A stretch of 28,806 bases of DNA from Methylosinus sp. LW4 (GTDB lineage Bacteria > Pseudomonadota > Alphaproteobacteria > Rhizobiales > Beijerinckiaceae), in NCBI RefSeq assembly GCF_000379125.1, contig NZ_KB900627.1, positions 233,896-262,701 of the forward strand. The letters are read 5' to 3'. Each line of letters begins with the position of its first letter. Within the stretch, counting starts at the first letter, position 1. The notes beneath the pieces are model-generated. The model worked only from the letters and a program-made list of their open reading frames with translations. It ran no database searches and was not told the origin of the DNA. The translations under genes and the position numbers were made by a program. Positions 8,301 to 24,076 of this stretch are shown here, piece after piece.

Positions 8301-8349
8301 TCGCAACTTCGGCTTCATTCGGCGCCTCGCTTGCGATAGATTCGCCGAC

Positions 8350-9997
8350 ATGACGCCGAGCTTCGATCCCGCCAGACTCGCAGAGCTGCCTGCCGATCTG
8401 CGCGCCGAGCTGCGCGCATTGTTCGAAGCTCAGCGCGCCATGCTCGAAGCCTAACGCATCCGCGCTGATCATGAGCTCGCCGCGCGCCTTCACACCGAGA
8501 GCGAGCTCGCAGCGTCGAAAGAGACGGTCAAACGTCTGCAATTGCTCGTCAAGGAATATGAACGCGCGCGCTTCGGCAAGCGTTCGGAGAAGCTCGATCC
8601 CGATCAGTTGCAGCTCGTGCTGGAAGATATCGAGATCGCGATCGCCGAAGTCGAGGAGCGCGAGGACGATCGCGCGCGCCGCTCGGGGCGCCCGGCGACC
8701 AGGGAGCGCGCCGGCCGCGCCGCGCGCGCTTTTCCTGCTCATCTGCCGCGCGTCGAGCGCGTGATCGAGCCTGCGAGCCTCGCCTGTCCCTGTGGCTGCG
8801 GCCTGATGGTTCGGATCGGCGAGGACCGCTCTAGCCGCCTCGACGTGACGCCGGCGCAATATCGCGTCATAGAGACCGTGCGGCCTCGCTACGCCTGTCC
8901 GAAAGGATGCGCGGGCGTCGCCCAGGCGCCGGCTCCCGCGCATCTGATCGAGGGCGGCGTCCCCACCGAGGCGCTGCTGGCGCAAGTGGCGGTCGCCAAG
9001 TTCAGCGAGCACATGCCGCTCTACCGTCAATCGCAGGTCTTCGCGCGCCATGGGATCATGCTCGACCGCGCCGTTCTGGCCGATTGGATGAGAACGACGG
9101 CCTTCCACCTCGCGCCGATCGTCGAGCGCATGAGCGTGCTGATGAAGCTGTCGGGCCGTCTATTCATGGACGAGACTCGGGCGCCGGTTCTCGATCCCGG
9201 CCACGGCCGGACGAAGACGGGATATCTGTGGGCCGTTCTGCGCGACGACCGCGGGCACGGCGGCGCCGATCCGCCGATCGTGGTCTATCATTACGCGCCG
9301 GGTCGCAGCGGCGAGCACGCCGAGCGGATGCTCGAAGATTCGACGGCGTCCTCCAGGTCGACGGCTATGGCGGCTATCATCGTCTGGCTCGCTCCGAACG
9401 CAAAGGCGGCGCGCCGTTGCGGCTCGCCTGGTGTTGGAGCCATGGCAGGCGCGAGATCTCGCCGCCACGCCGAAAGCGGGCTCGCCCATCGCCGAAGCGA
9501 TCCTGGCGCGCATCGCCGCGCTCTATGCGATCGAGGCGGAGATCAGGGGCAAAGAGGCGCCGCTCCGGCAGAGCGTTCGCGCCGAGCGGTCGCGGCCTCT
9601 CGTCGTCGAGCTCGAAGACTTTTTGCGCGCCCAGGCCGCTCGCCTGTCCGGCCGCAGCGACATGGGCAAGGCCGTCGCCTATCTTCTGAACCATTGGGTC
9701 GGGCTGACCCTGTTCCTCGACGATGGTCGCGTCGAGATGGACACGAACCTCGTCGAAAATCAGATTCGGCCGCTGACTCTCACGCGCAAGAATGCGTTAT
9801 TCGCGGGGCACGACGAAGGTGGACGTTCCTGGTCGCGTTTGGCTTCGCTCATCGCGACATGCAAGCTGAACAGCGTCGATCCCTATGCCTGGATGAAGGC
9901 GACGCTCGAGGCGATCGCCGACGGTCACCCGCAGTCGCGCATCGACGAGCTGATGCCCTGGGCCTTCAAATCTTCGCCGCCGGCGCCGGCCGCCTGA
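8350..9997 (+). pseudogene. tnpC: IS66-family transposase TnpC, disrupted
   Basis: The frame starts at ATG 8350 (MTPSFDPARL) and hits a TAA at codon 35 (8452-8454). It then continues in the same frame with the leucine-zipper-like and zinc-binding regions (KRLQLLVKEYERARFGKRSE; CPCGCG; CPKGC) and the start of the DDE core (FMDETRAPVLDPG). Near 9339-9341 one base is missing (GATTC for GATTTC), moving the match to another frame (FDGVLQVDGYGGYHRLARS, LAWCWSHGRRE). Near 9450 two extra bases move it again (AGSPIAEAILARIAALYAIE ... TNLVENQIRPLTLTRKNALF). One nonsense codon and two frameshifts make this a pseudogene. Confidence 0.85.
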
Positions 9998-10063
9998 TCG
10001 CTCGCCAGCGTGCCGACCAATCGCTGGCAAAGCATTGCGCCAAAGGCTTGCAATGCCTTGTCA

Positions 10064-11213
10064 TACGGTTTCCGGCTGATTGACTCGGCGAGGGGATTCC
10101 CGGGACGAATCGAAGCAGCTAAGCTGTGTCGCTATGAATCGCGGGAGGCGGGTCATGGCGACGATAGCTGCACATTTGAGCGTCGATGCGTTGCGTGAAC
10201 GGTATGTTTCGAGTTCGAACGCGCGCGAGGCGCGGCATTTCCATGCGATCTGGCTGCTCGCCAAGGGCCACACGCTCGGCGAAGTCGCCGAGATGACGTC
10301 CTTTGCCCAGCGCTGGATCGAGCAGCTCGCGGCGCGCTACAACGCAGAAGGGCCGGAGGCTCTCGGCGACTTGCGCCGGGGCAACGGCTCGACGGCGACG
10401 GTGTTGAAGCCCGATCTGCTCGCCGAGCTGCGCGTTCGGCTGAAGGAGCCGCCCGGGACGGAGGCTTGTGGACGAGCGCGAAAGTCGTGGCTTTTCTCGC
10501 GCGCGAATTGGGGCTGGAGAAAGTTGCGGTTCAGCGCGGCTGGGAGGCGCTGAAAGCCTGCGGCATGGCGATCCAGGCTCCACGCCCCAAAAATCCGAAG
10601 TCGGCTTCGCCCGAGGAGGCGGCGGCGTTCAAAAAACCTCGAAGACGCCGTCGCGGAGGAAGCCGCGAAGCATCCAGAGCGATCGGTCGAGGTCTTCGCC
10701 AGCGACGAGCACAGGCTCGGCCTGAAACCGGTCACGCGGCGCGTCTTGGGCGCCCGTCGGCGAGCGGCCGATCGCGCATGGCCATCATCGCTTCGACTGG
10801 CTCTACGTGACCGCCTTCGTCTCGCCGGCGAGCGGCGAGACCTTCTGGTATATGCACGACGGCGTCTCGAAGCCGTTTTTCACGGCGCTGCTCAAGACCT
10901 TCGCGCATGAAGCCGCGGCCGGCGTCAATCGCACGATCGTGCTCGTCATCGACAACGCCGGCTGGCACGGCGAGGCCGGTCTGAGCGTGCCGGATGCGTG
11001 CGACTCGTTTTTCTGCCGCCCTATACGCCGGAGCTGCAACCCGCCGAGATCTTATGGGCTCTCGTCGACGAGCCCATCGTCAACAAGCACGTCGGAACGA
11101 TAGAGGAACTCGACGCGATGCGCCGCGCTCGCAAACGAGCGCGACAAAAGCCGCGCCGGCTTCCATTGGTGGCCGAAAATCGCCAAGCCGAAGTAATCAG
11201 CCGGAAACCGTAT
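10064..11213 (+). mobile_element. IS630-family element, complete ends, decayed transposase
   Basis: Perfect inverted repeats bound the element: 10061-10081 reads TCATACGGTTTCCGGCTGAT(T), and its reverse complement lies at 11195-11215. IS630 elements duplicate TA, so the TA at 10064-10065 and 11212-11213 is the likely duplication. The flanking bases make an empty site of GTCATATGAC, a palindrome, which lengthens the apparent repeat beyond the element. It sits between the IS66 tail and the 3' end of the oxidoreductase gene at 11264. Confidence 0.85.
10155..11196 (+). pseudogene. IS630-family transposase, multiple frameshifts
   Basis: Transposase-like sequence is spread over three frames. The N-terminal HTH region (LSVDALRERYVSSSNAREAR; HAIWLLAKGHTLGEVAEM) begins at ATG 10155. 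The match shifts near 10455 to MWTSAKVVAFLARELGLEKV. It shifts again at the A6 run at 10631-10636 to LEDAVAEEAAKHPERSVEVF and SDEHRLG, near 10731 (extra T) to DWLYVTAFVSPASGETFWY and VIDNAGWHGEA, and near 10992 (missing G) to RLVFLPPYTPELQPAEILW. A last shift near 11120-11135 restores FHWWPKIAKPK with stop 11194-11196. The DDE residues are all recognisable. About five indels argue for decay rather than programmed frameshifting. Confidence 0.85.
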
Positions 11214-11263: not shown

Positions 11264-12346
11264 CTAGGCGCATCTTCCTGCAGTTTTTGCGAAAATAATT
11301 ATGTTGGGATCGATAGAGCCTATGCCTATAATTTTAGACTCTTGAATATGAGACTGCAGCATCGCAAATGTGATCAGCTGAGCATCAATTATATCTTGCT
11401 TTAGCAAGGTATTTTCATGAATACTTTTCTCTTCTCCTTCCAGGCAGCGAACCAATTGCCGAATGGGACTGAGCGACCCCTGTGGACGCTCGACTTGCTC
11501 GAGTTCCAAATCCGCGAAGCTCGCATATACACCGCCATCTTTCACCGAATAAACATCCAGCCCCGCACCATTGGCGCGAACTGTGATTTCGCCCTGCTCG
11601 CAGGAAAGGATGAAATCGTGACCCAACGCCTGGGTGATATGACCGACCAAGCCTCCTTCGAAATATACGCTCGCTGAAATCACCCGAGGATCGGACGTCA
11701 CCGACGTGGCGGGGCCATCTCTTACCACATTGTCCAGCACGGCGTGAACTCCAGCGACGCGGCGACCGAAAGCAGCGAACAGCAATAGATCTACGGAATG
11801 AGAGTGAGTCCAATAGAGCGGCGCCGAGCCGAAAGTGACCCGCACCTCCCGCAAGGCTCCGTATCGCCCTGATCTCGCCAGCGCCAAGGCTTGTCTGTAG
11901 ACGTCAAGATGCCGCCGGATCGCTCCCCAGGTTACGAAAAGCTCCTTCGATGCAAACAGTGTCCGCAACTTCTCGAGTTCAGCCATGCTGTTGCAAAGCG
12001 GTTTTTCCGCGTGAATCGCTCTGGTTCCCGAATCCACGGCCTCGTGGATCAAAGCCGCTCGCCCGAATGTTCGCGTGGCAAGGCCAAGCAGAGCGGGTTT
12101 TTCCGCTTTGAGCAAGTCCCTGGGATTAGCGTAGCGACGCTGCACGCCGAACTTCTCGCCGGCCCGGTTCAGGGCCTCGAGGCTAGTGTCGCACAAGGCC
12201 TTTAGCTTCAAGCGAGGGTGGGACAAAATGGCTTCCGCATGGCTCAGCGGAAGCCAGCAGGGCGGCCCGTGCGCAATCATGGTTTCACTGGTAAAGGCGC
12301 CCATGCGCCCGCATCCAATAACCGCGGCGTCGAAGTAATGCTCCAT
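11264..12346 (-). CDS. Gfo/Idh/MocA-family oxidoreductase
   Basis: A 360-residue NAD(P)-dependent dehydrogenase family member. The N-terminal Rossmann motif is AVIGCGRMG, the family lysine is in HAEKPLCNS, and a C-terminal sheet domain includes YWTHSHSVDLLLF, with the histidine and aspartate expected near the active site. Such enzymes oxidise, reduce or dehydrate sugar substrates in glycan pathways; the exact substrate is unknown. I prefer ATG 12346 (GGAG about 11 bases upstream), two bases after the stop of the preceding MDR gene; ATG 12364 would overlap that gene by 16 bp. The tight spacing implies a two-gene unit with the MDR protein. The stop lies 50 bp from the IS630 right end, so the IS insertions separate this gene from the glycosyltransferase farther along the strand. 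Confidence 0.85.
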   Translation of the reverse strand: MEHYFDAAVIGCGRMGAFTSETMIAHGPPCWLPLSHAEAILSHPRLKLKALCDTSLEALNRAGEKFGVQRRYANPRDLLKAEKPALLGLATRTFGRAALIHEAVDSGTRAIHAEKPLCNSMAELEKLRTLFASKELFVTWGAIRRHLDVYRQALALARSGRYGALREVRVTFGSAPLYWTHSHSVDLLLFAAFGRRVAGVHAVLDNVVRDGPATSVTSDPRVISASVYFEGGLVGHITQALGHDFILSCEQGEITVRANGAGLDVYSVKDGGVYASFADLELEQVERPQGSLSPIRQLVRCLEGEEKSIHENTLLKQDIIDAQLITFAMLQSHIQESKIIGIGSIDPNIIIFAKTAGRCA

Positions 12347-12348
12347 TT

Positions 12349-13362
12349 TCAGACGGCGCTCCATCGTAGAAGATACGTGGTCGGAGACGAACGTCGGGAA
12401 TCCAAGTCTCGGTATGCCGAACGGATATCCAAACCTTCATAGGCGCCCGACACAAGTAGCGAAGACCTCAAGTTGCCGCTCGAGATTTGTCTCGCCAAAT
12501 AGTCCAGATTGGATCTTACGTTGAACCGACTGAAGCCTCGACTGTCGGGATGCTCAGGAGACAGGCCAACAGCTTCGATACGAAGCTGCTTCATGTAAAA
12601 GTACTGACTAGCCAACGGATTGATGGTGGGTGCAGGCTCTCCGCGGCCCGGAAATCCCAAGACGCCGATAATCCCCATTTTTCCAGCCGCCGCTAGCGCC
12701 GTCTCCCAATCATTCCATCCGTTGGTGGTCGAAACGACCAAATCTGCCAGATCTGACCCGAGCGCCTCGATCATTGCGGCGCGCTCATGTCGAGCAAAGA
12801 CTGCCTCCGCCCCGAATTCTCGGGCGATCGCCGCCGGTCCGCCTTGATCGGACAGAGCGTAGACCTGCGCTCCCGCGACCGAAGCCATCGCGACCGTAGT
12901 CAAGCCCAAAGGGCCAAGTCCGATGACCAAAACACGACTTCCGGCCCGCGCATTCCCTCTCAACACCGCATTGTAGCCCAGGTGGAACAAATAAGCGCAA
13001 ACAATGTCATCCGCCGACGCCGATTCGGGCAACCGATAGAGAACCTCGTCTTCCGCGACAACAAAGGCGCTGCGATGCGACGTGAATGTGAGCACGCGAT
13101 CGCCGGTTCTGAAGCGGGTCACGTGGTTTCCCGTCTCGAGCACTCGAGCAACATTGCAGTAACCGACCAAGCGCGGATAGTTCGGCCCAGAGCGCAGCGG
13201 GGGCAGCCCTTTATACGCAGCGAGTTCGGTGCCCGGGGAGATTGCGGAAACAATCGTTTGACAAAGCAGATCCTTGTCGTCCGGCGCTCTCAAAGCTTCG
13301 GTCCGTATTTCCAGTTCGCCCGGAGCGTTGACCCAAACGACCGAGGCTTCAGCGGGCGCCAT
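12349..13362 (-). CDS. MDR-family (zinc-type alcohol dehydrogenase-like) oxidoreductase
   Basis: A 337-residue medium-chain dehydrogenase/reductase. The N-terminal GroES-like domain has SAISPGTELAAYKG, YPRLVGYCNVARV and TGDRVLTF; the Rossmann domain has VLVIGLGPLGLTTVAMA. The usual zinc-ligand cysteine near the N-terminus (the GICGTD-type position) is replaced by the SPGTE motif, so it may be zinc-free; BchC-like and some sugar-cluster MDR proteins share this trait. It starts at ATG 13362, preceded by GAGGGA with good spacing; an in-frame start at 13392 is less well supported. It precedes and nearly overlaps the Gfo/Idh/MocA gene, suggesting consecutive redox steps on one substrate. Confidence 0.85.
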   Translation of the reverse strand: MAPAEASVVWVNAPGELEIRTEALRAPDDKDLLCQTIVSAISPGTELAAYKGLPPLRSGPNYPRLVGYCNVARVLETGNHVTRFRTGDRVLTFTSHRSAFVVAEDEVLYRLPESASADDIVCAYLFHLGYNAVLRGNARAGSRVLVIGLGPLGLTTVAMASVAGAQVYALSDQGGPAAIAREFGAEAVFARHERAAMIEALGSDLADLVVSTTNGWNDWETALAAAGKMGIIGVLGFPGRGEPAPTINPLASQYFYMKQLRIEAVGLSPEHPDSRGFSRFNVRSNLDYLARQISSGNLRSSLLVSGAYEGLDIRSAYRDLDSRRSSPTTYLLRWSAV

Positions 13363-13401
13363 GTCGGATTTCCCTCGCCGATTGCGATACACTCATATCG
13401 C

Positions 13402-14676
13402 TCACGATTGTTCAATTCTGTCGGCGCGTGAAGATCGACACGTCGCCTTCGGGCTTTTCCAAACAAATGTCTTCGATTCGTGTTGAAGTGAGATCCCTGG
13501 GCCTCGGTAGGCGGCGCCATCGACAATGACGTCGGACGCCTCGGTCGCCAAGAATTCGAGAAGAGACGCCTTATCGAGAGTCACATTAGCGGAATCAAAC
13601 ATTTCTGAAACAAAGTAGTCTGGCAGTAGCCGCAACGCTGTCTTGAACAGAAATATCTTCTTTCCAAAAATATGAGCGACGAATAGGGCCGTGCTGTAGT
13701 GGCCAACCAACACCCTACAGGAGTTGACATGCTCTCGAAAACGTCCAATTTGAATATTATACGGGATATGATTTGAAACATCTGAATAAATATCAGGATG
13801 CGGGCAATATATTACGTTAATATTGTTGTCTTGGCAAAATTCGATCAAAGCCTTGTCTTCGACAAACTGTTCGGTATCCCAGTAGCTTTTACCCGCGACC
13901 GCGCTCCCGACGATCAGCACATCTGTTCGTTTTTCTTCAGAGCGTGGGCTCCACGGCGCCTCATTCTGATAGAAAACTTCCAACGAATTATGCCACAGAA
14001 GATGATCACGGATAATGGCAGGTTGCGGCAGTTTTGGCACCATATTAACATAGCTAATTTGTCCATCTGCTGCCATACTGTGTAATAGTAAATAGTAACT
14101 CGCAAAAATATCAGAACATATTCCGTGCAAATATTCAGTAATTTGTAGGCCATCTGTAATAGCTGCGATTCGTAATAACTCAATCGAGCGGCTGTTGGAC
14201 GAAAACAATTCCAGCTTCGAGATCTCATGCACGCGAAACACAGTTTGATAGACGCTTATCAGTCCGGCGGCGAGGCAACGACCGGACAACAGCCCCGACA
14301 CGAAACTTGGAAAGTGTTTCAGGACCCAAATCAACGTCGCGCGACGGAGAGAAAACCGATTTCCAGCATATTTGTCAATCCTAACGTCCGCGAAGATGAA
14401 ACGGCTCGCCGACACGTCTTCTCCCGCGAGAAAATGCCGCCGCATCGACACGGAGCGAAGGAGATCCGTGTCGGCCAATCGGCCTGAATTAAATACGGCT
14501 AGCAGATTGCCGGAGACAGACGTGTAAGCCGCGGGCTTCAGAGACCCGAGCGTCGCCGCCAGGGCGCTCGTGTCGACCGACTTTCCACGTTGGATTTCCA
14601 CATAGGCGTTCCAAAAATCGCGATAGACTTTAGCGCTCATCTTTTCAATTCGCTTGTCTGGCTTGCCATCCGGCAT
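13402..14676 (-). CDS. putative GT-B-like glycan transferase with HP and serine motifs
   Basis: A protein of about 424 residues without close family recognition. The C-terminal half has an alternating alpha/beta pattern: DVLIVGSAVAGKSYWDTEQF, then NINVIYCPHPDIYSDVSNHI, then SCRVLVGHYSTALFVAHIFG and KKIFLFKTALRLLPDYF. An HP dipeptide followed about 45 residues later by a GHYST segment recalls the HP and S/T motifs of bacterial sialyltransferase/polysialyltransferase and CDP-glycerol transferase GT-B folds. This is a motif-level resemblance only. Starts at GTG 14691, ATG 14676 and ATG 14640 are all possible; none has a strong ribosome site. The gene follows the amidase by about 30-45 bp. It is notably AT-rich compared with its neighbours. 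Confidence 0.6.
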   Translation of the reverse strand: MPDGKPDKRIEKMSAKVYRDFWNAYVEIQRGKSVDTSALAATLGSLKPAAYTSVSGNLLAVFNSGRLADTDLLRSVSMRRHFLAGEDVSASRFIFADVRIDKYAGNRFSLRRATLIWVLKHFPSFVSGLLSGRCLAAGLISVYQTVFRVHEISKLELFSSNSRSIELLRIAAITDGLQITEYLHGICSDIFASYYLLLHSMAADGQISYVNMVPKLPQPAIIRDHLLWHNSLEVFYQNEAPWSPRSEEKRTDVLIVGSAVAGKSYWDTEQFVEDKALIEFCQDNNINVIYCPHPDIYSDVSNHIPYNIQIGRFREHVNSCRVLVGHYSTALFVAHIFGKKIFLFKTALRLLPDYFVSEMFDSANVTLDKASLLEFLATEASDVIVDGAAYRGPGISLQHESKTFVWKSPKATCRSSRADRIEQS

Positions 14677-14719
14677 GCGCGCCACAACCACCTCGCAGGA
14701 GGAACCGGGACCGCGTCGT

Positions 14720-16072
14720 TTACCAGAACGACAGCAGAGGAGACGGACCGGCCGGCACCACGCCGCTCATCCAAAGATCGTCGATCAAGTTCAGCAGCAG
14801 ATGATCATTGTATTTTCTAGCCGCGATCTGAAGACCGAACGGCGCGCCTTGTGGCGACTGGAAGGCGGGAACGCTGATGGCGGGGAGATGCGTCAACGTC
14901 CACATCAGAGCCGGATCGGGCTCCTCGAGCACGTGACGCTTGGGGGCGGCGCCAGCCGTGGACAAGGAGATGATGGCATCGGTATCCGACAGGAATCGAT
15001 CCATCTCAGCGATCAGTCTATTCTGCATTTCGAGCGCTGCATGAAATTGACCGCCCGTGATTTGCTCACCTCTAGCGATCATATTCCGCATAACTTCCGA
15101 TATCCGGCCCAGAGCTTTATACTCTTCCCTGAAGTAGTAAGATAGGCACTTATCGTAAATGACCGAATGAACCTGATGAGCCTGCTCCATTTCGGCTGGA
15201 AGCTCCCGTTCGAACATATGCACTCCGTGCTCGCCCAACTTCGTGGCGAAGCTCAGTAGCGCGTCTTTGGCGTAATCTGGGGCATGCCGCCATGTATGCG
15301 TCTTTACCAAAGCCACACGCCACGGTCGCTCCTTGGGCTTGTTTTGCCTTTTATCGTCTTTGAGCGCGGAATAGCTGAACGGGAAGTTCGGGCCGTGCAC
15401 CCGGGAGACTTCCAACACGCGCCGAAGATCAGATGGGTGCGACACGAAGAATCCGATCGTGTCGAGACTGTCCGTCGTTTTCAAGGCCCCAGTCCTGGGA
15501 AGCAACCCAAAAGACGGCTTGAAGCCGTAAATCCCGCAGAAACTCGCCGGACGGATGATGGACCCGCCGGTCTGTGTGCCGAACGCCACGGGAACCATGC
15601 CGAGGGCGATCCCTACCGCCGAGCCGCTGGACGACGTGCCCGGTGTCAGTTCGACATTGTGAGGATTGAGTGTCTCATTGAGAGCATGCACCGCGAACTC
15701 GGCGGTCACCGTCTTTCCGGCGATCAATCCGCCCGCCATCCTCAAGTAGTAAACCACTCGAGCGTCGTTGCCGGGAGTAAAGCCCCGCCAAATCTCGCTG
15801 CCCATTTCGGTCGGGAAGTCCGACGTGTTGAACACGTCCTTTATTCCTAACGGGATACCCTCCAAGCTACGTAGGGGCTGCTTTGACGCCAGCCTCTCCT
15901 CGACGGCGTCTGCGCCTCGCCGGAGCGCCTCGGGATCGAAGCAGACCCAGGGCCGGTAATCACGATCGAATCGTTCGACGCGGGAGATACATTCCTCCGC
16001 GACATCGATGGGATGCAACCTGCCCGTTTCCATCTGGCTATGAATTTCAGAAATCGAAAACCGCCTGAACAT
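14720..16072 (-). CDS. amidase-signature family amidohydrolase (GatA-like)
   Basis: A 450-residue amidase-signature enzyme with a complete Ser-cisSer-Lys triad: K78 in GIPLGIKDVF, the cis-serine S147 in TPGTSSSGS and the nucleophile S171 in GTQTGGSIIRPAS. The 24-residue serine spacing matches GatA and FAAH. It would hydrolyse an amide, releasing ammonia or an amine. I chose ATG 16072 because GAAGAGG lies nine bases upstream and the codon is four bases past the stop of the N-acetyl sugar amidotransferase gene; a GTG at 16090 would overlap that gene by 14 bp. This spacing suggests translational coupling, so the amidase may feed ammonia to that amidotransferase or remove an amide group from the sugar product. 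The role is inferred from context, not family. Confidence 0.85.
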   Translation of the reverse strand: MFRRFSISEIHSQMETGRLHPIDVAEECISRVERFDRDYRPWVCFDPEALRRGADAVEERLASKQPLRSLEGIPLGIKDVFNTSDFPTEMGSEIWRGFTPGNDARVVYYLRMAGGLIAGKTVTAEFAVHALNETLNPHNVELTPGTSSSGSAVGIALGMVPVAFGTQTGGSIIRPASFCGIYGFKPSFGLLPRTGALKTTDSLDTIGFFVSHPSDLRRVLEVSRVHGPNFPFSYSALKDDKRQNKPKERPWRVALVKTHTWRHAPDYAKDALLSFATKLGEHGVHMFERELPAEMEQAHQVHSVIYDKCLSYYFREEYKALGRISEVMRNMIARGEQITGGQFHAALEMQNRLIAEMDRFLSDTDAIISLSTAGAAPKRHVLEEPDPALMWTLTHLPAISVPAFQSPQGAPFGLQIAARKYNDHLLLNLIDDLWMSGVVPAGPSPLLSFW

Positions 16073-16076
16073 GCGT

Positions 16077-17279
16077 CTAGGCCTCTTCACGTGGGTCTTG
16101 ACGGTAGCGGTGCTTAGCGATCAATTGCTCGAAGAATGGCACGGTCACTTCCCGGTTCTGGCGCTGCTTGGGGTGAACGGGCGGATTAATGTCGATCAGC
16201 TTGAGATGTTTGAGCTGCCGCATCGTCTCGTAAAACTCGCTCTCGGAAAGATCGGTGATTTTCAAGTAATAGTCCAAAGCGCCGGGACGCTCCGAATCGA
16301 TCGCCTGGGCGATCTTGAAACCCTCTTCGCGCGTCATGAGACCGTTGCGCACATCGACGCACGCCTGGAATGTCGCACGGCCATAACCGCGCTTGAGATA
16401 GCAGGTGAAGTCGTGAACGCCGGCCATGATGCATTCCGCGCTCTTGTAGCCTTTGTAAGCACCCTCCATCTCCGTTTCCTTCCAACCGTATTCCTGGCAA
16501 ATAAATTCGGTCTGGCGCTCCTCGTCCCAAAATATATAGTCGCCAAGGTGAATGCCGTGGATGCCCACCCGTTCAACGTCTTCGAGAGACGGCACGTTGA
16601 AAGGATACAGATCGCGTTCGGAAAGGGCGCCGCAGGTCATTTCCTTCGGCGATCGTTTGGCTGAAACCTTTGTAAAATACTCGCGATCGAACTTGTGAAC
16701 CGGATCTTCATATGAGGCTCTTCCAGAGGATTCCGCGACGGACTCGCCCCAGATGAGTAACGGAATATTGAAACGAACAGCGGCCTGCAGAGGAAAGGCC
16801 CCGACGCCGGCGTGGCAATGCCAACAGGCGTCGCCGATCATTCCCAGCGACCGACGAGCGAGCCGGTTCACCAAGCTTCGGTTCGGGGTGAACATGACGT
16901 GGTCGACGTCGAACTGCTGCAGCGCGTTCTGAAGATTGTACCAACCCGTCTCGCTGTACCAGTTGTGGCTGAACGTGACCGTCAAAGGCTTCATGCCATA
17001 AACTTTGACCAGCACGTGCAATTGGAAGACGCTGTCCTTACCGCCGCTGATCGGGACGATGCAATCGTAATTGTTCCCGGCCTTCGTCTTCGCGTTTTCA
17101 AGTAAATTCCGAAGGCGCTTTTCGCGTTCGACCCAATTGATATGGATTTTCTGTTCAGATGACTGACAAGCTTGGCAGATGCCCTGGTCGTCGAATTTTA
17201 CGCCTTCTTGGGTTTCAGGCATGCAGCAACGCACGCAGTAGCGAAGGCTCTCAAAAGGCGTGGAGGTCGCTGTCTGCAT
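16077..17279 (-). CDS. N-acetyl sugar amidotransferase (WbpG/PseA-type PP-loop enzyme)
   Basis: A 400-residue member of the N-acetyl sugar amidotransferase family. An N-terminal Cys cluster (YCVRCCMP with C15, C18, C19; CQAC with C35, C38) probably binds zinc. The PP-loop ATP pyrophosphatase motif SGGKDS is at residues 78-83, followed by GDACWHCHAGV. Family members adenylate an N-acetyl group and use ammonia to make an acetamidino sugar, as WbpG does in Pseudomonas LPS and PseA in Campylobacter flagellin glycosylation. WbpG normally works with HisH/HisF-like glutaminase partners; none is encoded in this window, and the adjacent downstream gene is an amidase. It begins 51 bp downstream of the GT-B-like gene on the same strand. 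Confidence 0.9.
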   Translation of the reverse strand: MQTATSTPFESLRYCVRCCMPETQEGVKFDDQGICQACQSSEQKIHINWVEREKRLRNLLENAKTKAGNNYDCIVPISGGKDSVFQLHVLVKVYGMKPLTVTFSHNWYSETGWYNLQNALQQFDVDHVMFTPNRSLVNRLARRSLGMIGDACWHCHAGVGAFPLQAAVRFNIPLLIWGESVAESSGRASYEDPVHKFDREYFTKVSAKRSPKEMTCGALSERDLYPFNVPSLEDVERVGIHGIHLGDYIFWDEERQTEFICQEYGWKETEMEGAYKGYKSAECIMAGVHDFTCYLKRGYGRATFQACVDVRNGLMTREEGFKIAQAIDSERPGALDYYLKITDLSESEFYETMRQLKHLKLIDINPPVHPKQRQNREVTVPFFEQLIAKHRYRQDPREEA

Positions 17280-17330: not shown

Positions 17331-18212
17331 TTACTCCTGGGGCAGGTGCCTGATTTGGATTATGCCCTGATGAGGTAAGCGCAGCGGCGGCGCCCAAGGC
17401 GGCAGCGTGCTGAACACTCGCCGACCTGCTCCGAGCGCCAGCGTCAGAGCAAACGATTCAACGCCGATCACTATATCGGCATCTGAAATGGCGGCCGACA
17501 AGTCCGGCGCACGGTCGAAACGAATGTATGGATGCCGGTCCGCATACGCTTGGTACTTCTCCGCGGACTCCGAGGGATGGGGCCGCAAGGTGAGAATCGC
17601 GTTGGAAGCGGGGGCGAGCAGGGTGAGGCGCGACAAGGCGTAATCGAGCGCCTGGAATTCGCCGGGCGTTCCGTGGCCCCAGTCGCTGCGAACAGGCTCC
17701 AGCACGTAAAGGATTCGTTCCTTTCCGGGAGGCGGACCGATACGCGAGAGCTGCTCCCTGACATAGAGATTGGGCCGCCGGAACACTCGCGTTTGCGGAA
17801 AAGTTCGCCGCGCAAGCGCCTCCGCTTGGACGTCGGCGACCCATATTTCATTGGGCAACTGACGGAAGCCGTTCCATTCAAATCGCGCCGCGTAGTTGGC
17901 CCAATGATCGATGACGCCAATGCTGTGGATTCCCAGGCGCGCGGCCTCGATACGGGCGAGATGCTCGATATCGCTGGCCCAGCCCGTGCCGCTCAACAGC
18001 GCGGCGGCGCCGAGCAAAGCAGTCGGCATGTCATCCTGCAAAGGCCGTTCTTGGAAGTAGTTCGCCCACAGCCTGCTGGCAGGTCCGAACATGCAAGCGC
18101 GCAGCTCTCCACGCCAGTCCTTGATCCAAGGCAAGATCAGATTGGCCGCGCCGGCGTCATGGCACACCACGGCGAGCGGAGATGGAAGGTCAGGCGTCTT
18201 TGAATCGGCCAT
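17331..18212 (-). CDS. GT-B-like protein of polysaccharide loci
   Basis: A 293-residue soluble protein. It begins with a nucleotide-fold-like strand and turn (AVVCHDAGAANLILPWI), then SGTGWASDIEHLARIEAARL and VIDHWANYAARF. The C-terminal half has ILYVLEP, LTLRPHPSES with an HP dipeptide, and ADIVIGVESFALTLALGAG. The layout resembles the C-terminal domain of GT-B glycosyl- or polyol-phosphate transferases, but I cannot assign a donor. It starts at ATG 18212, 23 bp inside the end of the GNAT gene, so the two are translationally coupled. That pairing, with the amidotransferase next, suggests the three act on the same N-acylated sugar. Confidence 0.65.
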   Translation of the reverse strand: MADSKTPDLPSPLAVVCHDAGAANLILPWIKDWRGELRACMFGPASRLWANYFQERPLQDDMPTALLGAAALLSGTGWASDIEHLARIEAARLGIHSIGVIDHWANYAARFEWNGFRQLPNEIWVADVQAEALARRTFPQTRVFRRPNLYVREQLSRIGPPPGKERILYVLEPVRSDWGHGTPGEFQALDYALSRLTLLAPASNAILTLRPHPSESAEKYQAYADRHPYIRFDRAPDLSAAISDADIVIGVESFALTLALGAGRRVFSTLPPWAPPLRLPHQGIIQIRHLPQE

Positions 18213-18756
18213 AGTAGACGATATCCGCGGGCTGCCCCTCGAGCAGTTCCTGCGCCCGGCGGGTCGCCTCCAGGCGCAGACCGGCGCGCTCCATGACCCG
18301 AATCATGCCGATGTTGCGCGTGAGCGTGCCGGCTGTGACTTTGCGGATATCCGATCGGGCCAGCAACCAGTTCAGAACCAGCGAGAACGCCTCCAGCCCG
18401 AAACCGTTGCCCCAAGCTTCGCGTGCGCCCAGCATCACGCCGACGTCGGCGGTCTGGTGATGTTCGTTACAATACGCCGTCATTGTGCCGATCAAGCGTC
18501 CGCTTTCCCGTAGGACGATGGCCAGGAAGTAATTGCTCGAACCTTCAAAGCTCGACAGATAGGTTTGGCAGGTTTCCTCGTCGTGCCGACGAAACCTTTG
18601 ATTGCTGAACCGAACGACCTCAGGGTCGTTCAGCCAAGCTACATAGGTCGGCTGAATGTCGTCGACCGTGAAGCTCCGCACGAGCAATCGAGGCCCCTCT
18701 AGACGCAAGGGAGAAGCGCCGTTGGCGGCGACCGCTCGTTCGACTTCGCGGCTCAC
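18190..18756 (-). CDS. GNAT-family N-acetyltransferase (RimJ/RimL-like)
   Basis: An acetyltransferase of about 188 residues. It has the GNAT core: RLLVRSFTVDDIQPTYVAWL at the N-terminus, GRLIGTMTAY, the acetyl-CoA loop GAREAWGNGFGLEAF and the C-terminal NIGMIRVMERAGLR. In sugar loci such enzymes (PseH-like) acetylate an amino sugar nucleotide, here plausibly making the N-acetyl group the amidotransferase uses; that link is inference. I favour GTG 18756 because GAGG lies seven bases upstream; an in-frame ATG at 18792 lacks a ribosome site. The end overlaps the next gene by 23 bp. The region upstream contains no gene, so this may begin a transcript or be a re-entry point of a longer one. Confidence 0.8.
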   Translation of the reverse strand: MSREVERAVAANGASPLRLEGPRLLVRSFTVDDIQPTYVAWLNDPEVVRFSNQRFRRHDEETCQTYLSSFEGSSNYFLAIVLRESGRLIGTMTAYCNEHHQTADVGVMLGAREAWGNGFGLEAFSLVLNWLLARSDIRKVTAGTLTRNIGMIRVMERAGLRLEATRRAQELLEGQPADIVYYGRFKDA

Positions 18757-19153
18757 GTCATTACCTCGAGCTGGGCACGTCACGACGGCCATTCGAGCCG
18801 TCGAAAATTTTCTTCGCTGCGGGCGCGAGACGCTTCCAAGCTACCGCACAACGGGTGAGCATGGGCTCGATCCGTCGAGGACGAGACCCCGCAGGCGTGG
18901 TGTTAAAATAGCCTGGCCTCGGATCGCGCATCTATCCGTTAATACCCGTATCGGATGCGGAGCAAATTTTGGGGATGGCCGCGTGAAGGAGTTCTGGTGC
19001 AAACAGCGTGAGCAGGCCATGATCCGTGGGCGAAACCAAACGCTAGGTTGATGGGTCAACGGATATCAGGCTGTTGATTTCCACTGAGAGCTGACCGAGA
19101 CAGAACCCGATCGAAAGTGCATTCGCGACGGTGCGGCCTTATAATTTTTTAGC
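18757..19153. other. gene-free interval with an IS21 end scar
   Basis: About 400 bases between the GNAT start and the stop of the sugar-phosphate transferase gene. I see no convincing coding region; the plus-strand frame ending VKEFWCKQREQAMIRGRNQ at 19051 has no recognisable homology. The interval contains a 26-bp IS21 terminus at 19071-19096 and the short palindrome GTTGATGGGTCAAC at 19047-19060. It may hold the promoter for the GNAT-to-oxidoreductase genes, but no clear -35/-10 pair stands out. Confidence 0.5.
19071..19096 (+). repeat. orphan IS21-family terminus (26 bp)
   Basis: Twenty-six bases here, beginning CTGTTGATTTCCACTGAGAG, are identical to the left end of the IS21 element at 27210-27235. 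Identity stops at the next base. No istA or istB sequence follows, so this is a scar of a lost or deleted copy of that element, or a site where two copies recombined. Confidence 0.7.
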
Positions 19154-19861
19154 TCAGAGAAATCGGCGGAGCCCCTCCGGCGGCGGCGGAAGGCGAATAA
19201 GCAATCTTCGATGATAGCCCCTCCGGGGACAAAGCACGACCAGCAAAGTCGAGAATATCAGTTCGAAATACAGAGATACTGACTGGTTACAAACGAACCA
19301 ACGTTCGATCCGCCCCTTATAGGGCATGATGACCTCCTCGTCGAAGCGAATGGGATCGGCCACTTCGGAGAGGAGCTTTTCCTCGTCGCGAAACAGTACC
19401 GAGCCGACCCCCGAAAGACCCGGGCGGACCATCGACACATAGACCCGATCCTCCGGTCGATAAGAATTGTAAAATCTCGACGTTTGCGGCCGCGGTCCGA
19501 TAATGCTCAAGTCGCCCTTGAGAATATTGAGGAGTTGCGGCAATTCGTTGAGCTTGGTGCGACGTAGGAAACGACCGAGCGGGAGAACCCTGGGGTCGTC
19601 GGCCAATGTCAGTTCGCCTGCACCGATGCTCGGACTGTCCTTCAGCATCGTCGCAAATTTAAACAGTTCGAACTCTCGGCCTCTCTTTCCAATGCGTCGC
19701 TGCCGGAAAAAGACATCGCCCTCTCCCGTAAGCCGCAACGCCAGCATGATCAGCGCCAACAGCGGAGCGAGCAATAGCAGCGCCGAGCCGGAAAGCAGGA
19801 TGTCCGTCGCTCGGATGAGAACGCGAGTTTGAATTGAGATCTGCGAAACTTTGTGCGTCAC
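19154..19861 (-). CDS. undecaprenyl-phosphate sugar phosphotransferase (monotopic PGT)
   Basis: A 235-residue bacterial sugar transferase of the PglC/WcaJ-catalytic-domain type. One hydrophobic N-terminal segment (about 21-45, ILLSGSALLLLAPLLALIML) anchors it in the inner membrane. It is followed by VFFRQRRIGKRGREFELFKF, LADDPRVLPLGRFLRRTKL, NELPQLLNILKGDLSIIGPR and VRPGLSGVGS. It would transfer a phospho-sugar from a UDP-sugar to undecaprenyl phosphate, starting the repeat unit. The length fits the short PglC-like class rather than the longer WbaP class. The GTG start overlaps the aldolase stop (GTGA), so its translation is probably coupled to the aldolase. Confidence 0.9.
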   Translation of the reverse strand: MTHKVSQISIQTRVLIRATDILLSGSALLLLAPLLALIMLALRLTGEGDVFFRQRRIGKRGREFELFKFATMLKDSPSIGAGELTLADDPRVLPLGRFLRRTKLNELPQLLNILKGDLSIIGPRPQTSRFYNSYRPEDRVYVSMVRPGLSGVGSVLFRDEEKLLSEVADPIRFDEEVIMPYKGRIERWFVCNQSVSLYFELIFSTLLVVLCPRRGYHRRLLIRLPPPPEGLRRFL

Positions 19862-20688
19862 GGACGCTCCGAAAGCGAGTCGAGCACCGTTCGAACGTCG
19901 CGCTGTACCTGCAATCGGTTGAATTCAAAGAACGCTGCATCTTGATCGGCGAGCCACGATTCCGTTGCGCGTATCGCACGCACACCGTCGGCGAAATGTA
20001 CCGCGAACTCTGCGTTCTGATCGCCTATAGGCGATGAACAAAAGCTACGCGCGAGGATTACGCCAACGGATCCCAACCGATAGTGTTCAGCGAGAATATG
20101 CTCGGCAGGCGGAATGAGCTCGCCGATGCGCGCCATCCCGCCAATTCCGAAGGCCACTCCTGTCGCCTGGATCTCGCGCGCCAATGCATCCATGGAGCCG
20201 TCGGCGAGAAATTCGAACATGAATCGTGTCTTGCGCTCGATGTGCAAATCGTTGAGCCCGACATGGACGTAGTCGACACCCGGCGCCTGCAGAATTTTGT
20301 CTACGTCCCGGACAGCGTCCACCGTTTCGAGCAACAACCAAGCCTCGACGCGACCGCCGACGAGTCCGACGAAACGACAGACCTCATCTTTCGTCTTGAA
20401 AAACGGCAGCATCACCGCGTCCGCCCCGGCGGCGATCGCGCTGTCGACTTCACCTTCGCTCCACTCGCCGAGCGGGTTGACGCGGACGAGCAACCTCGAT
20501 CTCGTCAGCACCTGTCGAATCCCCTCGATGTCTTCGATTGTGTGCGCCGAAATGACGGTATTCCGACCGATCTGACGGAGATTCTTGCCGCGATATTCGA
20601 GGTCGACGAAAATCCAATCCACGCCCGCCGCTTCTGCGATCAGGGCGACACGGGGGTCTTTGGTGATATAGAGCAATCGGATCGACAT
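19858..20688 (-). CDS. HpcH/HpaI-family aldolase-like enzyme
   Basis: A 276-residue TIM-barrel protein of the HpcH/HpaI aldolase/citrate-lyase family. Metal ligands are present: E121 in LLETVDAV and D147 in GLNDLH; the substrate-binding Arg is probably R69 in LLVRVNP, and GADAVMLPFFK supplies the usual loop. The catalytic-base histidine of HpaI (DGEH) is a tyrosine here (VDLEY, Y32). I believe this variant recurs in polysaccharide-locus members of the family, so the reaction may differ from pyruvate aldol chemistry. The gene starts at ATG 20688 with no good ribosome site: an IS630 remnant ends about 4 bp upstream of the start codon. It overlaps the sugar-phosphate transferase by 4 bp. Confidence 0.8.
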   Translation of the reverse strand: MSIRLLYITKDPRVALIAEAAGVDWIFVDLEYRGKNLRQIGRNTVISAHTIEDIEGIRQVLTRSRLLVRVNPLGEWSEGEVDSAIAAGADAVMLPFFKTKDEVCRFVGLVGGRVEAWLLLETVDAVRDVDKILQAPGVDYVHVGLNDLHIERKTRFMFEFLADGSMDALAREIQATGVAFGIGGMARIGELIPPAEHILAEHYRLGSVGVILARSFCSSPIGDQNAEFAVHFADGVRAIRATESWLADQDAAFFEFNRLQVQRDVRTVLDSLSERP

Positions 20689-20692
20689 GTAA

Positions 20693-20891
20693 TACGTTTT
20701 TCGGGCTGATTGACTCGGGCGAGAGGATTCCCGGGACGAATCGAAAGCAATTAGGCTGTGTCGCTATGAATCGCTGGAGGCGGGTCATGGCGACGATAGC
20801 TGCGCATTTGAGCGTCGATGTGTTGCGTGAACGGTAACAACGCAGAGCTGGCCAAAAATCGCCAAGCCGAAGTAATCAGCCGGTAACCGTA
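20693..20891 (+). mobile_element. internally deleted IS630 derivative (MITE-like, 199 bp)
   Basis: Both ends match the IS630 element at 10064-11213. The left 145 bp (20693 to about 20837) match its first bases through GCGTGAACGGTA. A few bases match the internal ACAACGCAGA near 10340. The last ~40 bp (CGCCAAGCCGAAGTAATCAG and onward) match its right end. Ends are TACG... and ...CGTA with TA at each side. About 950 bp of transposase are absent. Terminal bases have drifted (for example cgtttttcgggctgatt for cggtttccggctgatt). It lacks any coding capacity but could be mobilised in trans. Confidence 0.85.
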
Positions 20892-20923
20892 CAAGAACCA
20901 CCGCGCGAGATGTCGCGATCGAG

Positions 20924-20962
20924 CGTCGTCTCCTCGGCCTCGAGAGGCCAAGGGCGACGACG
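20924..20962 (-). terminator. strong hairpin after the PLP decarboxylase-like gene
   Basis: Nested complementary arms: CGTCGTC (20924-20930) with GACGACG (20956-20962), a short TCCT/AGGG step, and GGCCTC (20936-20941) with GAGGCC (20944-20949) around a 2-base loop. It begins 21 bp after the gene's stop codon. There is no T-run on the minus strand after it, so it is not a textbook intrinsic terminator; it could stabilise the 3' end of the message or slow RNA polymerase. Confidence 0.35.
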
Positions 20963-20982
20963 CTAATGGAACACCACAGCCT

Positions 20983-22227
20983 TCATGCGAAGGCATATGA
21001 CTGAAATACGTCTTCGTACGTTTCTCGTCGCTTTATGATCCGGTATGAAACTCCGTCTGGATCAGGCTCCAGGATCGCGACATTCGGCAGAATAAACGGC
21101 GGCTTCATCACAACGGAGTAGGAGCCGACGTCCTCGAACACCACATAATCGCCCACAGACAGCCGTCCGGTGTAGCCTTTGTAGAGATAGTCACCTTCGA
21201 TACATGTATAGCCCGCAAAATTCGCTCTCTCCACCAAGTGCTCGCCCTCGGTGGCGGAGAATACCGTGATCGGCACGTTCTTACGATTCGGCGTCGGATT
21301 AATGTTGTACAAGCTTCCGCTGAGCGTCACGATGGATTGGCCGCGAACGTCCTTTATACTATTGACAGCGCAAACGAACCTCATAGCATCCGCGACCAGA
21401 GCGGTGCCAGGCTCGACCATCAGAACCGGAGAAGGGTTTTTGCCCAGACCGCGTAAGAACTCTGCGAAGGGCTTCGCCGCTGCGACGGCGTAGTCGTCGA
21501 ACTCCGGAATGGGGACCGGAAACTGCGCCATCATCTCCGGCGGCATTCGCCCATACATTCCGCCGCCGAGGCTGACGAATTCGAAGCTCGCCACGCGGTT
21601 ACGAAAGAGTCGATCGATGACGCCGATCATGCCTTTCGTTCGGTTCTCCCAGCACGCCAGGCTGCGGGTCGCGAAATGACACTGAAGACCCGTCAACGCG
21701 AGCGACGGATTGGCGTCGATGAGCGAAATCGCGTCCGTGAACGCCGCTCCATGCACATCGAAACCCAAACGTGAAAGGACACCATCCTGGACGTCGAAGT
21801 TGCAGCGCAGACCGAGCTTGAATGGCGCCCCACGGATTCCATCCGTCATTCGACGGATCGCACATAACTCGTCCCAGGAATCAACATTGACGATTCCGCC
21901 GCCTTCGAGCAATGATTTCACATAGGCCAGCTCTTTGTAGGGGCCGTTGAAGAATATTTTCTCATCGGGAACGCCGATCTGTCGAGCTAAAGTCAGCTCC
22001 ATGCTGGAGACGACCTCGGCGAAGCCGCCCAACTGATCGATGATCTGGCAAAACCTCGGCACATAGTTGGTCTTGTAGGAGTAGGCGACCCTCGTGCTAG
22101 GATAGTAGCTGCGAAAGGCCGCGCTGAGAGCTTCGAAATTTTGGCGGAAGCGCGAAGAATCCAGAAGATAGAAAGTCGACCCATGCTCTGCCGCTATGCG
22201 ATCCAAAAGCTCATAGGACAATTTCAT
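20983..22227 (-). CDS. fold-type III PLP enzyme (diaminopimelate/ornithine decarboxylase-like)
   Basis: A 414-residue alanine-racemase-fold PLP enzyme with the decarboxylase C-terminal domain. The Schiff-base lysine is K52 in VAYSYKTNY, LQCHFAT matches the cofactor-stacking His segment, the phosphate loop is SLGGGMYG (about 219-226) and VEPGTALVADA follows. A cysteine equivalent to the decarboxylase catalytic Cys is in TCIEGDYLYKG (C342), followed by VFEDVGSYS. It probably decarboxylates an amino acid; the specificity residues differ from LysA (for example PPFI after SYSVVMK), so the substrate is open. Its start overlaps the stop of the aminotransferase by 4 bp (ATGA), implying consecutive steps. 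The AT-rich IS630 scar lies downstream. Confidence 0.8.
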   Translation of the reverse strand: MKLSYELLDRIAAEHGSTFYLLDSSRFRQNFEALSAAFRSYYPSTRVAYSYKTNYVPRFCQIIDQLGGFAEVVSSMELTLARQIGVPDEKIFFNGPYKELAYVKSLLEGGGIVNVDSWDELCAIRRMTDGIRGAPFKLGLRCNFDVQDGVLSRLGFDVHGAAFTDAISLIDANPSLALTGLQCHFATRSLACWENRTKGMIGVIDRLFRNRVASFEFVSLGGGMYGRMPPEMMAQFPVPIPEFDDYAVAAAKPFAEFLRGLGKNPSPVLMVEPGTALVADAMRFVCAVNSIKDVRGQSIVTLSGSLYNINPTPNRKNVPITVFSATEGEHLVERANFAGYTCIEGDYLYKGYTGRLSVGDYVVFEDVGSYSVVMKPPFILPNVAILEPDPDGVSYRIIKRRETYEDVFQSYAFA

Positions 22228-23186
22228 CGGCCGCGCGCCTCCAGCTCGTTTTGACTGCGGGAACCGGCTTTCGTGCGGTTCACTGCCGTTCGCCAGTCCG
22301 GGTAGCGCCCGTCCGCGCCCGAAGCCACCGCGAGATAGCGGCGCAGCATATCGACCGTGAGAGGCCCCGGCTCGCCTCGACCCACTTCGAAGCGGTCGAC
22401 AGATACGATCGGGGAAATTTCGGCGGCGCTTCCACAGAGAAAGATCTCATCGGCGAGATAGAGCTCCGTGCGATCGATCGTTCGTTCTCGCACCCCGATT
22501 CCGATATCGCGAGCCATGCGGATTACCGTGTCACGTGTGATGCTGTCGAGAACGGAGGAGGTAGTCGGCGGAGTGATCAGCTCGCCTGACCGGACCATGA
22601 AGAGACAGGCGCCGGCGCCTTCGGCAACCTTGCGATCCGCTCCGAGAAAAATCGGAAGATCGTAGCCGTCCCGACGCGCCTGCAGATGAGCGAAGCGCCC
22701 ATTTATATAGTTTGCGCCGACCTTTGCGCGGGGGGGAAGCACATTGTCGTTGATCCGTTCCCAGGACGACACGCATGCTGCGAATTTCGGGATTTTGCGC
22801 AGGTCGGTGCGCGCCCTGGGCATTGGAGCGATAAACATCGAAATCGGCTCGCAAGAGCTCCAAGAGCCTTCGCCATCGCCAAATAGCGTAAGTCGTACCG
22901 CTGTGTCGCAGAGAAAGTCATTCGCCTCGATCGCATGTCTGAAGCTGCGTTCGATTTCCGCCACGGAGTAAGGCGATTTGAAACTCACTATGCGTGAAGA
23001 CTGCAACAGGCGATGCAAGTGATCCCGCAGCCTGAAGGCGTAGAGCACGCCATCTTCTGCGTTCCAATAGCAACGGATGCCTTCGAAAACGTTCAATCCG
23101 AACTGCGCCGCGGGAGACAGAACATTCACGAACGCCTGGCTCTGCCGAACGATCTCTCCGCGCAGCCAGATGAAGTTGTCCGCCAT
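22224..23186 (-). CDS. class IV aminotransferase (branched-chain aminotransferase-like)
   Basis: A 320-residue fold-type IV PLP aminotransferase close to IlvE in length and motifs: FGLNVFEGIRCY near the N-terminus, the PLP lysine K155 in RAKVGANYINGR, VAEGAGACLFMV with E189, SITRDTVIRMA and ADEIFLCGSAAEISPI. It would transfer an amino group from glutamate or a branched-chain amino acid to a 2-oxo acid. I chose ATG 23186 (MADNFIWLRG) because AGAGGA lies five bases upstream and family proteins begin there; the open frame extends to 23297, but that stretch has no family match. Location among glycan genes argues against a housekeeping role, and coupling to the PLP decarboxylase suggests a two-step amino-acid route. 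Confidence 0.85.
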   Translation of the reverse strand: MADNFIWLRGEIVRQSQAFVNVLSPAAQFGLNVFEGIRCYWNAEDGVLYAFRLRDHLHRLLQSSRIVSFKSPYSVAEIERSFRHAIEANDFLCDTAVRLTLFGDGEGSWSSCEPISMFIAPMPRARTDLRKIPKFAACVSSWERINDNVLPPRAKVGANYINGRFAHLQARRDGYDLPIFLGADRKVAEGAGACLFMVRSGELITPPTTSSVLDSITRDTVIRMARDIGIGVRERTIDRTELYLADEIFLCGSAAEISPIVSVDRFEVGRGEPGPLTVDMLRRYLAVASGADGRYPDWRTAVNRTKAGSRSQNELEARGR

Positions 23187-23272
23187 CACATTCCTCTGCA
23201 ATTTTGTGGGCGCGCCGCCCCAGATCGCCTCTGCCCTCCAGAGGACGCCGCGACATCCGCCACACACATCGG

Positions 23273-24076
23273 TCAGCCCTTCGTGAGCGTCAACCAAGTG
23301 TGCGTCGTCCTCAAATCCTCAGGGGAGAAGCGCGCAAATTGCTCGGCGATTTGAAAGGGCGGCGGCGTTGTGAAACTCGTCTGCCTTTCGATCACAAATC
23401 CATAACGAGCGAATATTTCGACGTATTGACTGCTGAGGAGACGATTTTGGTGGAGCAGTGGCGGGTTGAAACGCCTCCATCTGCGTTCGTCGTATCTCAG
23501 ATAGTTGAGGTCATGTAATGATGCGTCGGAATCGGACCAGTGATCCTTATGTGCGATATGATGGGTCGAAACCCCACCATGGCGCAAAACTCTGTGCAAC
23601 TCCGACGCCAATCGTTCGACTTGCCCCGAGGGCACGTGCTCGAGCACGGACGTCGATGTAATCAAATCGAAGGAGTTGTCCTGAAAGGGAAGGTCCGGTG
23701 GATCGTAAACAATGTATTCGACGCCAAGCTCGGACAAGGAGCCTGCGTCGACACGAAGCAATATATCATTTTGCAGTCGCTCGGAGGCGAGCGGCTTGAT
23801 GTCCGCGGCCGTCACTGCTCTCCCTCTGGCCGCCATCAGAATTGGGATGGCCAAGTCCGATCCAGACCCTAGGTCCAATACTGCAACGGGAGGGCGTCCG
23901 ACGATCCTTATGTATGATGAGAGGTGCTTTTGCGCGATCGCTCTGCGCGCTGCAAGCTGGGTGTCCGAGATCGGAAGAGACTTGGTGACATAGAGTTGCA
24001 TGTAGCGATTTAGCTCGACCGAGCCAGGCGTCATGGACAAGGCCCACTGAACAGCGCTCTTGAGCTTGAAATTCAT
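23273..24076 (-). CDS. class I SAM-dependent methyltransferase
   Basis: A 267-residue methyltransferase. Motif I is AVLDLGSGSDLAIPIL, the acidic end of strand 2 is VTAADIKPLA, and FDLITSTSVLEHVPSGQVER is the motif IV-V region of Methyltransf_11 proteins; a HHIAHKDHW segment follows, as in some sugar-cluster methyltransferases. Substrate unknown, likely a glycan or its substituent. It starts at ATG 24076 with AGGT eight bases upstream, 15 bp after the preceding methyltransferase gene stops. An 86-bp gap separates it from the aminotransferase. Confidence 0.8.
   Translation of the reverse strand: MNFKLKSAVQWALSMTPGSVELNRYMQLYVTKSLPISDTQLAARRAIAQKHLSSYIRIVGRPPVAVLDLGSGSDLAIPILMAARGRAVTAADIKPLASERLQNDILLRVDAGSLSELGVEYIVYDPPDLPFQDNSFDLITSTSVLEHVPSGQVERLASELHRVLRHGGVSTHHIAHKDHWSDSDASLHDLNYLRYDERRWRRFNPPLLHQNRLLSSQYVEIFARYGFVIERQTSFTTPPPFQIAEQFARFSPEDLRTTHTWLTLTKG

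Follow-up and report, generated by a model that had tools for sequence, protein, structure and literature searches.

Within a 28,806-nucleotide stretch of the Methylosinus sp. LW4 genome (contig NZ_KB900627.1, positions 233,896 to 262,701; hereafter the window), a gene for an N-acetyl sugar amidotransferase of the WbuX/PseA/WbpG type (hereafter WbuX), a PP-loop ATP pyrophosphatase, is directly followed by a gene for an amidase-signature protein. Acetamidino sugars give flagella and O-antigens a positive charge, and their synthesis is thought to need ammonia partners of the HisH/HisF type, as in the case of WbpG with HisH2/HisF2. In the WbuX clade to which the window's enzyme belongs, we propose that the amidase is probably a dedicated ammonia-producing partner that stands in place of HisH and HisF, because amidase and HisH/HisF exclude one another beside WbuX, the amidase-type enzymes form a single clade, the two proteins are fused in many relatives, the fused domains are predicted to dock, and the HisH counts of whole genomes agree with such a replacement.

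Both genes lie on the minus strand, with WbuX at 17279-16077 (400 residues) and the amidase at 16072-14720 (450 residues). The WbuX stop codon, TAG, is separated from the amidase ATG at 16072 by four bases (acgc), as the initial annotation of this DNA had described, and a GTG at 16090 provides an alternative amidase start that adds six residues and overlaps WbuX. The same annotation had placed the ribosome site of the amidase inside the upstream gene, and a gaagag at 16083-16088, within the 3' end of WbuX, could indeed serve in that role. The active-site residues it had listed are likewise in place: WbuX carries the PP-loop SGGKDS at residues 78-83 (17031-17048) and a tetracysteine (zinc) motif made of the CxxC pairs Cys15/18 and Cys35/38 (17166-17237), and the amidase carries an intact catalytic triad of Lys78 (15839-15841), cis-Ser147 (15632-15634) and the nucleophile Ser171 (15560-15562), each kept in 130/130 aligned sequences. 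Among the best 120 relatives of the amidase, the closest (96%) comes from Methylosinus sp. C49.

The window WbuX is a member of the TIGR03573 family, scoring 349.8 bits against a curated cut-off of 203.2, and is accordingly predicted to form an amidine on an N-acyl sugar. In 60/60 aligned WbuX-amidase fusions the SGGKDS motif is invariant, as are Cys35 and Cys38, with Cys15 and Cys18 kept in at least 90%. The only solved relative found by sequence is LpNASAT (8wex), in which, according to the text of its description, the tetracysteine motif binds zinc and ammonia is ligated to an N-acetyl group; the main text of that paper contains no occurrence of "HisH" or "glutamin" (PMC10607449). The standard set is represented by a Sphingomonas cluster that combines WbuX with HisF2 and HisH (PMC11340318), and flagella are described as bearing pseudaminic and legionaminic acid in acetamidino form (PMC3958885). 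The window pair resembles the WbuX/WbpG/PseA systems that include HisH2/HisF2 in its PP-loop, its zinc tetracysteine and its surface-sugar gene neighbourhood, but differs from them in having no HisH/HisF, in the adjacent or fused amidase and in its separate clade.

To place the pair among its relatives, we sampled WbuX genes by TIGR03573 in 60 relatives, in 398 genomes of the window's phylum, in 297, 296 and 244 genomes of the phyla of G450 (Desulfovibrionaceae), G451 (Bacteroidales) and G454 (Chamaesiphon), respectively, and in 13 genomes reached through loci of an amidase scan. Up to 10 kb of flanking sequence was taken for most matches and 1.5 kb for some, profiles for WbuX, HisH, HisF and the amidase were built from the matches and run on all frames, and a partner was called when it lay within 10 kb or within the flank retrieved. 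Fragmented matches over the cut-off in G071:C2, G465 and G669 were left out, and a few under it were added (G353, the second copy of G080, G549:C65, G623 and the second of G667). Of 179 distinct WbuX genes, 145 had HisH and/or HisF beside them (136 had both), 7 had the amidase and 27 had neither, with no case (0/179) in which amidase and HisH/HisF accompanied the same WbuX (Fisher p = 5.2e-6, full table). Where at least 8 kb was available on both sides (n=91), the corresponding counts were 70, 5 and 16. The initial annotation had proposed such a survey to see whether the amidase and HisH/HisF are anticorrelated, and the two were never found beside the same WbuX. The 16 well-flanked loci without a partner are L140, L153, L156, L165, L170, L235, L240, L298, L300, L302, L306, L308, L309, L312, L334 and L335.

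The adjacency is conserved in relatives across phyla, where it turns into fusion. Comparing the best 120 relatives of the amidase with the best 120 of WbuX, and using identical contig size as a proxy for the same contig, we found that 38 of 119 distinct contigs were common to both, against a mean of 0.6 and a maximum of 4 when the sizes were jittered (2000 draws). The amidase-type pair recurs in at least four phyla. Insertion sequence (IS) elements around the window's cluster might suggest that the two genes are unconnected in function and lie together by chance or hitchhiking, but with 38 common contigs where 0.6 are expected, with most of the listed relatives being fusions and with recurrence in four phyla, this explanation is hardly credible and we reject it. 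A fusion-profile search of 101 genomes of the phylum of G449 found the pair in G449 only; G1360, of the same phylum, had a WbuX-like match without an adjacent amidase match, and the remaining matches were of GatA-like length. A phage origin was also considered and dismissed, as phage records gave no match and viral contigs no relative; 20 plasmid records held WbuX matches, all below 60% identity.

In L015/L180, the WbuX and amidase domains are joined in one protein of 875 residues. A homology search with this fusion listed 120 proteins, the query included, to which we assigned domains: 69 were WbuX-amidase, 8 WbuX-WbuX'-amidase, 23 WbuX'-WbuX and 6 GNAT-WbuX proteins, and 14 were WbuX without another recognised domain. 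In all, 77 of these 120 proteins thus hold WbuX and amidase in one chain, with the amidase following WbuX in every case. One such natural fusion is P0251 of Solidesulfovibrio alcoholivorans. HisF-WbuX fusions, with HisF N-terminal, occur in the HisH/HisF type (L152, L154, L225, L291), so that both kinds of partner have been joined to WbuX. A single frame combining HisF and HisH adjoins WbuX in L276, L277 and L313, all from the phylum sample of G454, with L276 and L313 in the same genome.

The extra WbuX' domain looks degenerate, since the eight three-domain proteins and the tandem proteins carry at most one SGGKDS each. It stands, without SGGKDS, ahead of WbuX in 23 of the proteins P0315-P0360, and between WbuX and amidase in P0271, P0274, P0278, P0281, P0283, P0289, P0290 and P0294; it is possibly a pseudo-enzyme that serves as a scaffold or a substrate-binding part. 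An AlphaFold model of the natural fusion P0241 predicts that its WbuX and amidase domains dock confidently, with a predicted local distance difference test (pLDDT) score of 89.5, a predicted template modelling (pTM) score of 0.87, a value obtained without a control, and a disordered linker at residues 391-410. The nucleophile of the amidase domain is Ser587 in the numbering of P0241.

Phylogenetic trees group the amidase-type enzymes together. In an IQ-TREE analysis of 72 WbuX sequences (24 amidase-type and related fusions, with 40 HisH/HisF-type and 8 partnerless sequences drawn at random), the 24 formed one side of a branch with a Shimodaira-Hasegawa-like approximate likelihood ratio (SH-aLRT) support of 100, with no other sequence inside, whether HisH/HisF-type or partnerless. 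The identical set of 24 was obtained with a support of 100 in a FastTree of 196 sequences, including all 145 HisH/HisF-type and 27 partnerless ones, and was recovered again in a FastTree of 170. Nine of the 24 are GNAT-, formyltransferase-, APS-kinase- or tandem-WbuX proteins, of which two are three-domain proteins that carry an amidase and the other seven have none in the chain. The replacement of HisH/HisF appears to have happened once and to have spread afterwards. Within the clade, WbuX is fused to part of a formyltransferase in P0325, to an APS kinase in P0335 and to GNAT in P0322, P0328-P0330, P0334 and P0339, a hint that the N-acyl groups handled by these enzymes may differ.

Profiles run over the whole window detected neither HisH nor HisF, in keeping with the replacement put forward in the initial annotation. 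The Methylosinus genome (4.8 Mb, rated 100% complete) holds one HisH, and no second one was found at profile level. This only HisH and the only full-length HisA and HisF sit together on contig 1, while the window is on contig 2, and their locus reads as a hisB-H-A-F-E operon (hisB and hisE assigned by eye). The five PF00977 matches in the genome comprise the operon's full-length HisF and HisA, two partial matches (37.8 and 24.5 bits, both over the Pfam cut-off) that fall in one frame of 234 residues (C1:2638035-2638697), and one match below the cut-off. Genome-wide, a single HisH over the cut-off was found in each of G000 (the window's genome), G006, G450 and G086, the last with one additional weak match. 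G448 and G961 have two each (G961 also a weak one), and in both genomes one of the two adjoins a second WbuX that has HisH and HisF beside it. The remaining HisH copies would be those of histidine operons, as the operon in the window's genome indicates and as we presume for the others. The strongest case for an amidase pair without HisH is G449 (Babeliales, 0.9 Mb), where none was found genome-wide in an assembly that may be incomplete.

The window amidase matches PF01425 with 243.2 bits and has the Ser-cisSer-Lys triad of that family. It is not a true GatA: it scores 201.6 bits against the GatA equivalog TIGR00132, far below the cut-off of 481.1, it lacks the glutamine residues described next, and the Methylosinus genome encodes a separate true GatA (531.2 bits). 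Glutamine is presumably recognised in Staphylococcus aureus GatA by Tyr309, Arg358 and Asp425; the columns of Tyr309 and Asp425 are gaps in 130/130 amidases, Arg358 is not conserved, and the Asp425 loop is deleted in all 130, although the alignment near Tyr309 and Arg358 is uncertain. Among solved relatives, malonamidase E2 of Bradyrhizobium is the closest. Arg174, three residues past Ser171, is invariant in 130/130 and aligns with Arg158 of malonamidase E2, which we take to be a carboxylate-binding residue that may not be specific to malonamidases. A family-specific set, H299, H302, Y306, Y312, Y313, F314, E317, D386 and W391, is near-invariant. The proposal of a GatA-like stand-in for HisH/HisF therefore holds in part: the replacement is upheld by the lack of HisH/HisF in the locus, the exclusion and the conserved and fused pair, while a literal GatA is contradicted by the missing glutamine residues and the closeness to malonamidase E2. 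The comparison with GatA of GatCAB is valid for the fold and the proposed role but extends neither to family membership nor to the donor, and the partner is GatB there and a PP-loop enzyme here.

Several observations weigh against a role in ammonia supply. The glutamine residues of GatA are not kept and their Asp loop is deleted. The 16 of 91 well-flanked WbuX genes without any partner suggest that the absence of HisH/HisF need not require a substitute. The Fisher p value is not a count of independent events, because the switch looks like a single one. Only two of the seven amidase loci were found blindly, L143 in the sample of the window's phylum and L296 in the phylum of G451; the other five are the window itself, L173 (a same-genus locus whose WbuX is 98% identical to the window's) and L178, L179 and L180, which come from genomes picked through amidase-scan matches. 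In L143, two other frames (2.1 kb) separate WbuX from the amidase; the other six loci have the two either fused or in frames that share between a few and 76 bases.

Some of these observations would also fit an amidase that acts as a tailoring or proofreading hydrolase within the sugar pathway of WbuX, stripping a precursor or the product of an N-acyl group or an amide, with WbuX using free ammonia or that of the housekeeping HisH/HisF. The kinship with malonamidase E2 rather than GatA, the loss of the glutamine residues together with a family-specific set of residues that points to a substrate of its own, and the partnerless WbuX genes all speak for such an enzyme. It leaves unexplained, however, why amidase and HisH/HisF exclude each other beside WbuX, why the amidase is fused to WbuX itself, and why G449, in which no HisH was found, has the pair, and we consider it distinctly unlikely.

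For an amidase that supplies ammonia, glutamine is the default guess for the donor even though the GatA glutamine pocket is absent, and it is only an assumption given that absence and the position of malonamidase E2 as nearest solved relative. We tentatively consider, as possible but doubtful, a WbuX class whose amidase-signature ammonia generator is fed by another amide, such as asparagine, a malonamate-like dicarboxylic monoamide or a sugar-borne amide. The window amidase and malonamidase E2 have the Arg158 equivalent in common, but the former is paired with WbuX and the latter is a stand-alone hydrolase that is not known to feed a synthetase.

The genes around the pair, all on the minus strand, look like a surface-polysaccharide cluster. 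Upstream lie a surface-carbohydrate-like protein (17331-18212; a weak TIGR04396 match of 20.9 bits against a cut-off of 125; family F2) and a GNAT N-acyltransferase (18190-18792; PF13302, 88.6 bits). Downstream are a Gfo/Idh/MocA dehydrogenase (11264-12364; PF01408; family F1), a zinc-type alcohol dehydrogenase-like oxidoreductase (12349-13392; PF00107) and a 429-residue protein (13402-14691) without a Pfam or NCBIfam match at E 0.001, the latter two also found in L173. Same-strand neighbours further include a sugar transferase, glycosyltransferases and methyltransferases. Relatives of the GNAT, F1 and F2 proteins occur in 7/7 amidase-type loci, F1 and F2 being single-linkage phmmer groups and the GNAT of L143 coming from a separate comparison only (43 bits). 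The N-acyl group that WbuX would turn into an amidine may be the product of this GNAT.

The closest WbuX from outside the genus in the trees, P0325, has a partial formyltransferase domain, so the amidine might be formimidoyl rather than acetamidino. More generally, the WbuX enzymes of this clade might make a non-acetamidino product (a formimidoyl group, another amidine or a carboxamide), with the amidase serving that chemistry. Besides P0325, the fusions to APS kinase or GNAT fit this alternative, as does the gene content: the window shows no recognisable Pse gene or DegT-type sugar aminotransferase (within this genome, Pse genes were sought in the window only), unlike L296, where PseI (498.4 bits) and PseG (333.2 bits) exceed their cut-offs and PseF- and PseC-like matches fall under them. 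In L179, PseG is over the cut-off (206.7 bits) and PseH under it. The membership in TIGR03573, the intact PP-loop and zinc motif, and the GNAT relative in every amidase-type locus, which fits an N-acyl substrate, argue against a different product, which we regard as unlikely; on the source of ammonia it overlaps with the supply role proposed here, so the two are not mutually exclusive.

The cluster also contains genes for an HpcH/HpaI aldolase, a LysA/N-citrylornithine-decarboxylase-like protein and a class IV aminotransferase (19858-23297, minus strand). It is flanked by IS21 istA/istB-like genes and IS66 tnpB and tnpC, the latter seemingly frame-shifted (38-2535, 7947-10083 and 27314-28806), and the frame at the right end of the window resembles the istA-like one. 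Direct repeats of 143 nucleotides (2477/7317) and 92 nucleotides (10113/20745) look like IS remnants.

Combining these results, we outline how the pair may work as an ammonia-supplying system. WbuX and the amidase would form a complex, which in many relatives is a single polypeptide and in the window would assemble from two separate chains. With its Ser171/Ser147/Lys78 triad the amidase would cleave a small amide, and the PP-loop site of WbuX would receive the ammonia released. There, ATP would activate the N-acyl carbonyl of an amino sugar (with AMP and pyrophosphate as products), and the carbonyl would be turned into an amidine.

Ammonia-releasing hydrolases are coupled to PP-loop ATP pyrophosphatases in other enzymes as well. 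GMP synthetase, NAD synthetase and asparagine synthetase are PP-loop synthetases with glutaminase domains, and their hydrolases are of the class I triad, nitrilase or N-terminal nucleophile (Ntn) type; the window's amidase-signature partner is of none of these types. As the initial annotation had suspected, we found no earlier description of the WbuX-amidase pairing in the open-licence literature, nor a paper there that combined "sugar amidotransferase" with "amidase" or "amidase signature" with "PP-loop"; in the available text of papers that contain both "acetamidino" and "amidase", the terms stand in unrelated places.

Our results suggest an unrecognised route of ammonia supply, in which an unrelated amidase occupies the place where HisH/HisF would be expected, in a WbuX clade that spans at least four phyla. 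They would newly add an amidase-signature protein to the partners of PP-loop enzymes, and if the donor is indeed an amide other than glutamine, the clade would represent a sugar amidotransferase that is not fed by glutamine. As the two proteins often form one chain of about 870 residues, which should lend itself to direct expression, the ammonia-supply step becomes testable in a single polypeptide.

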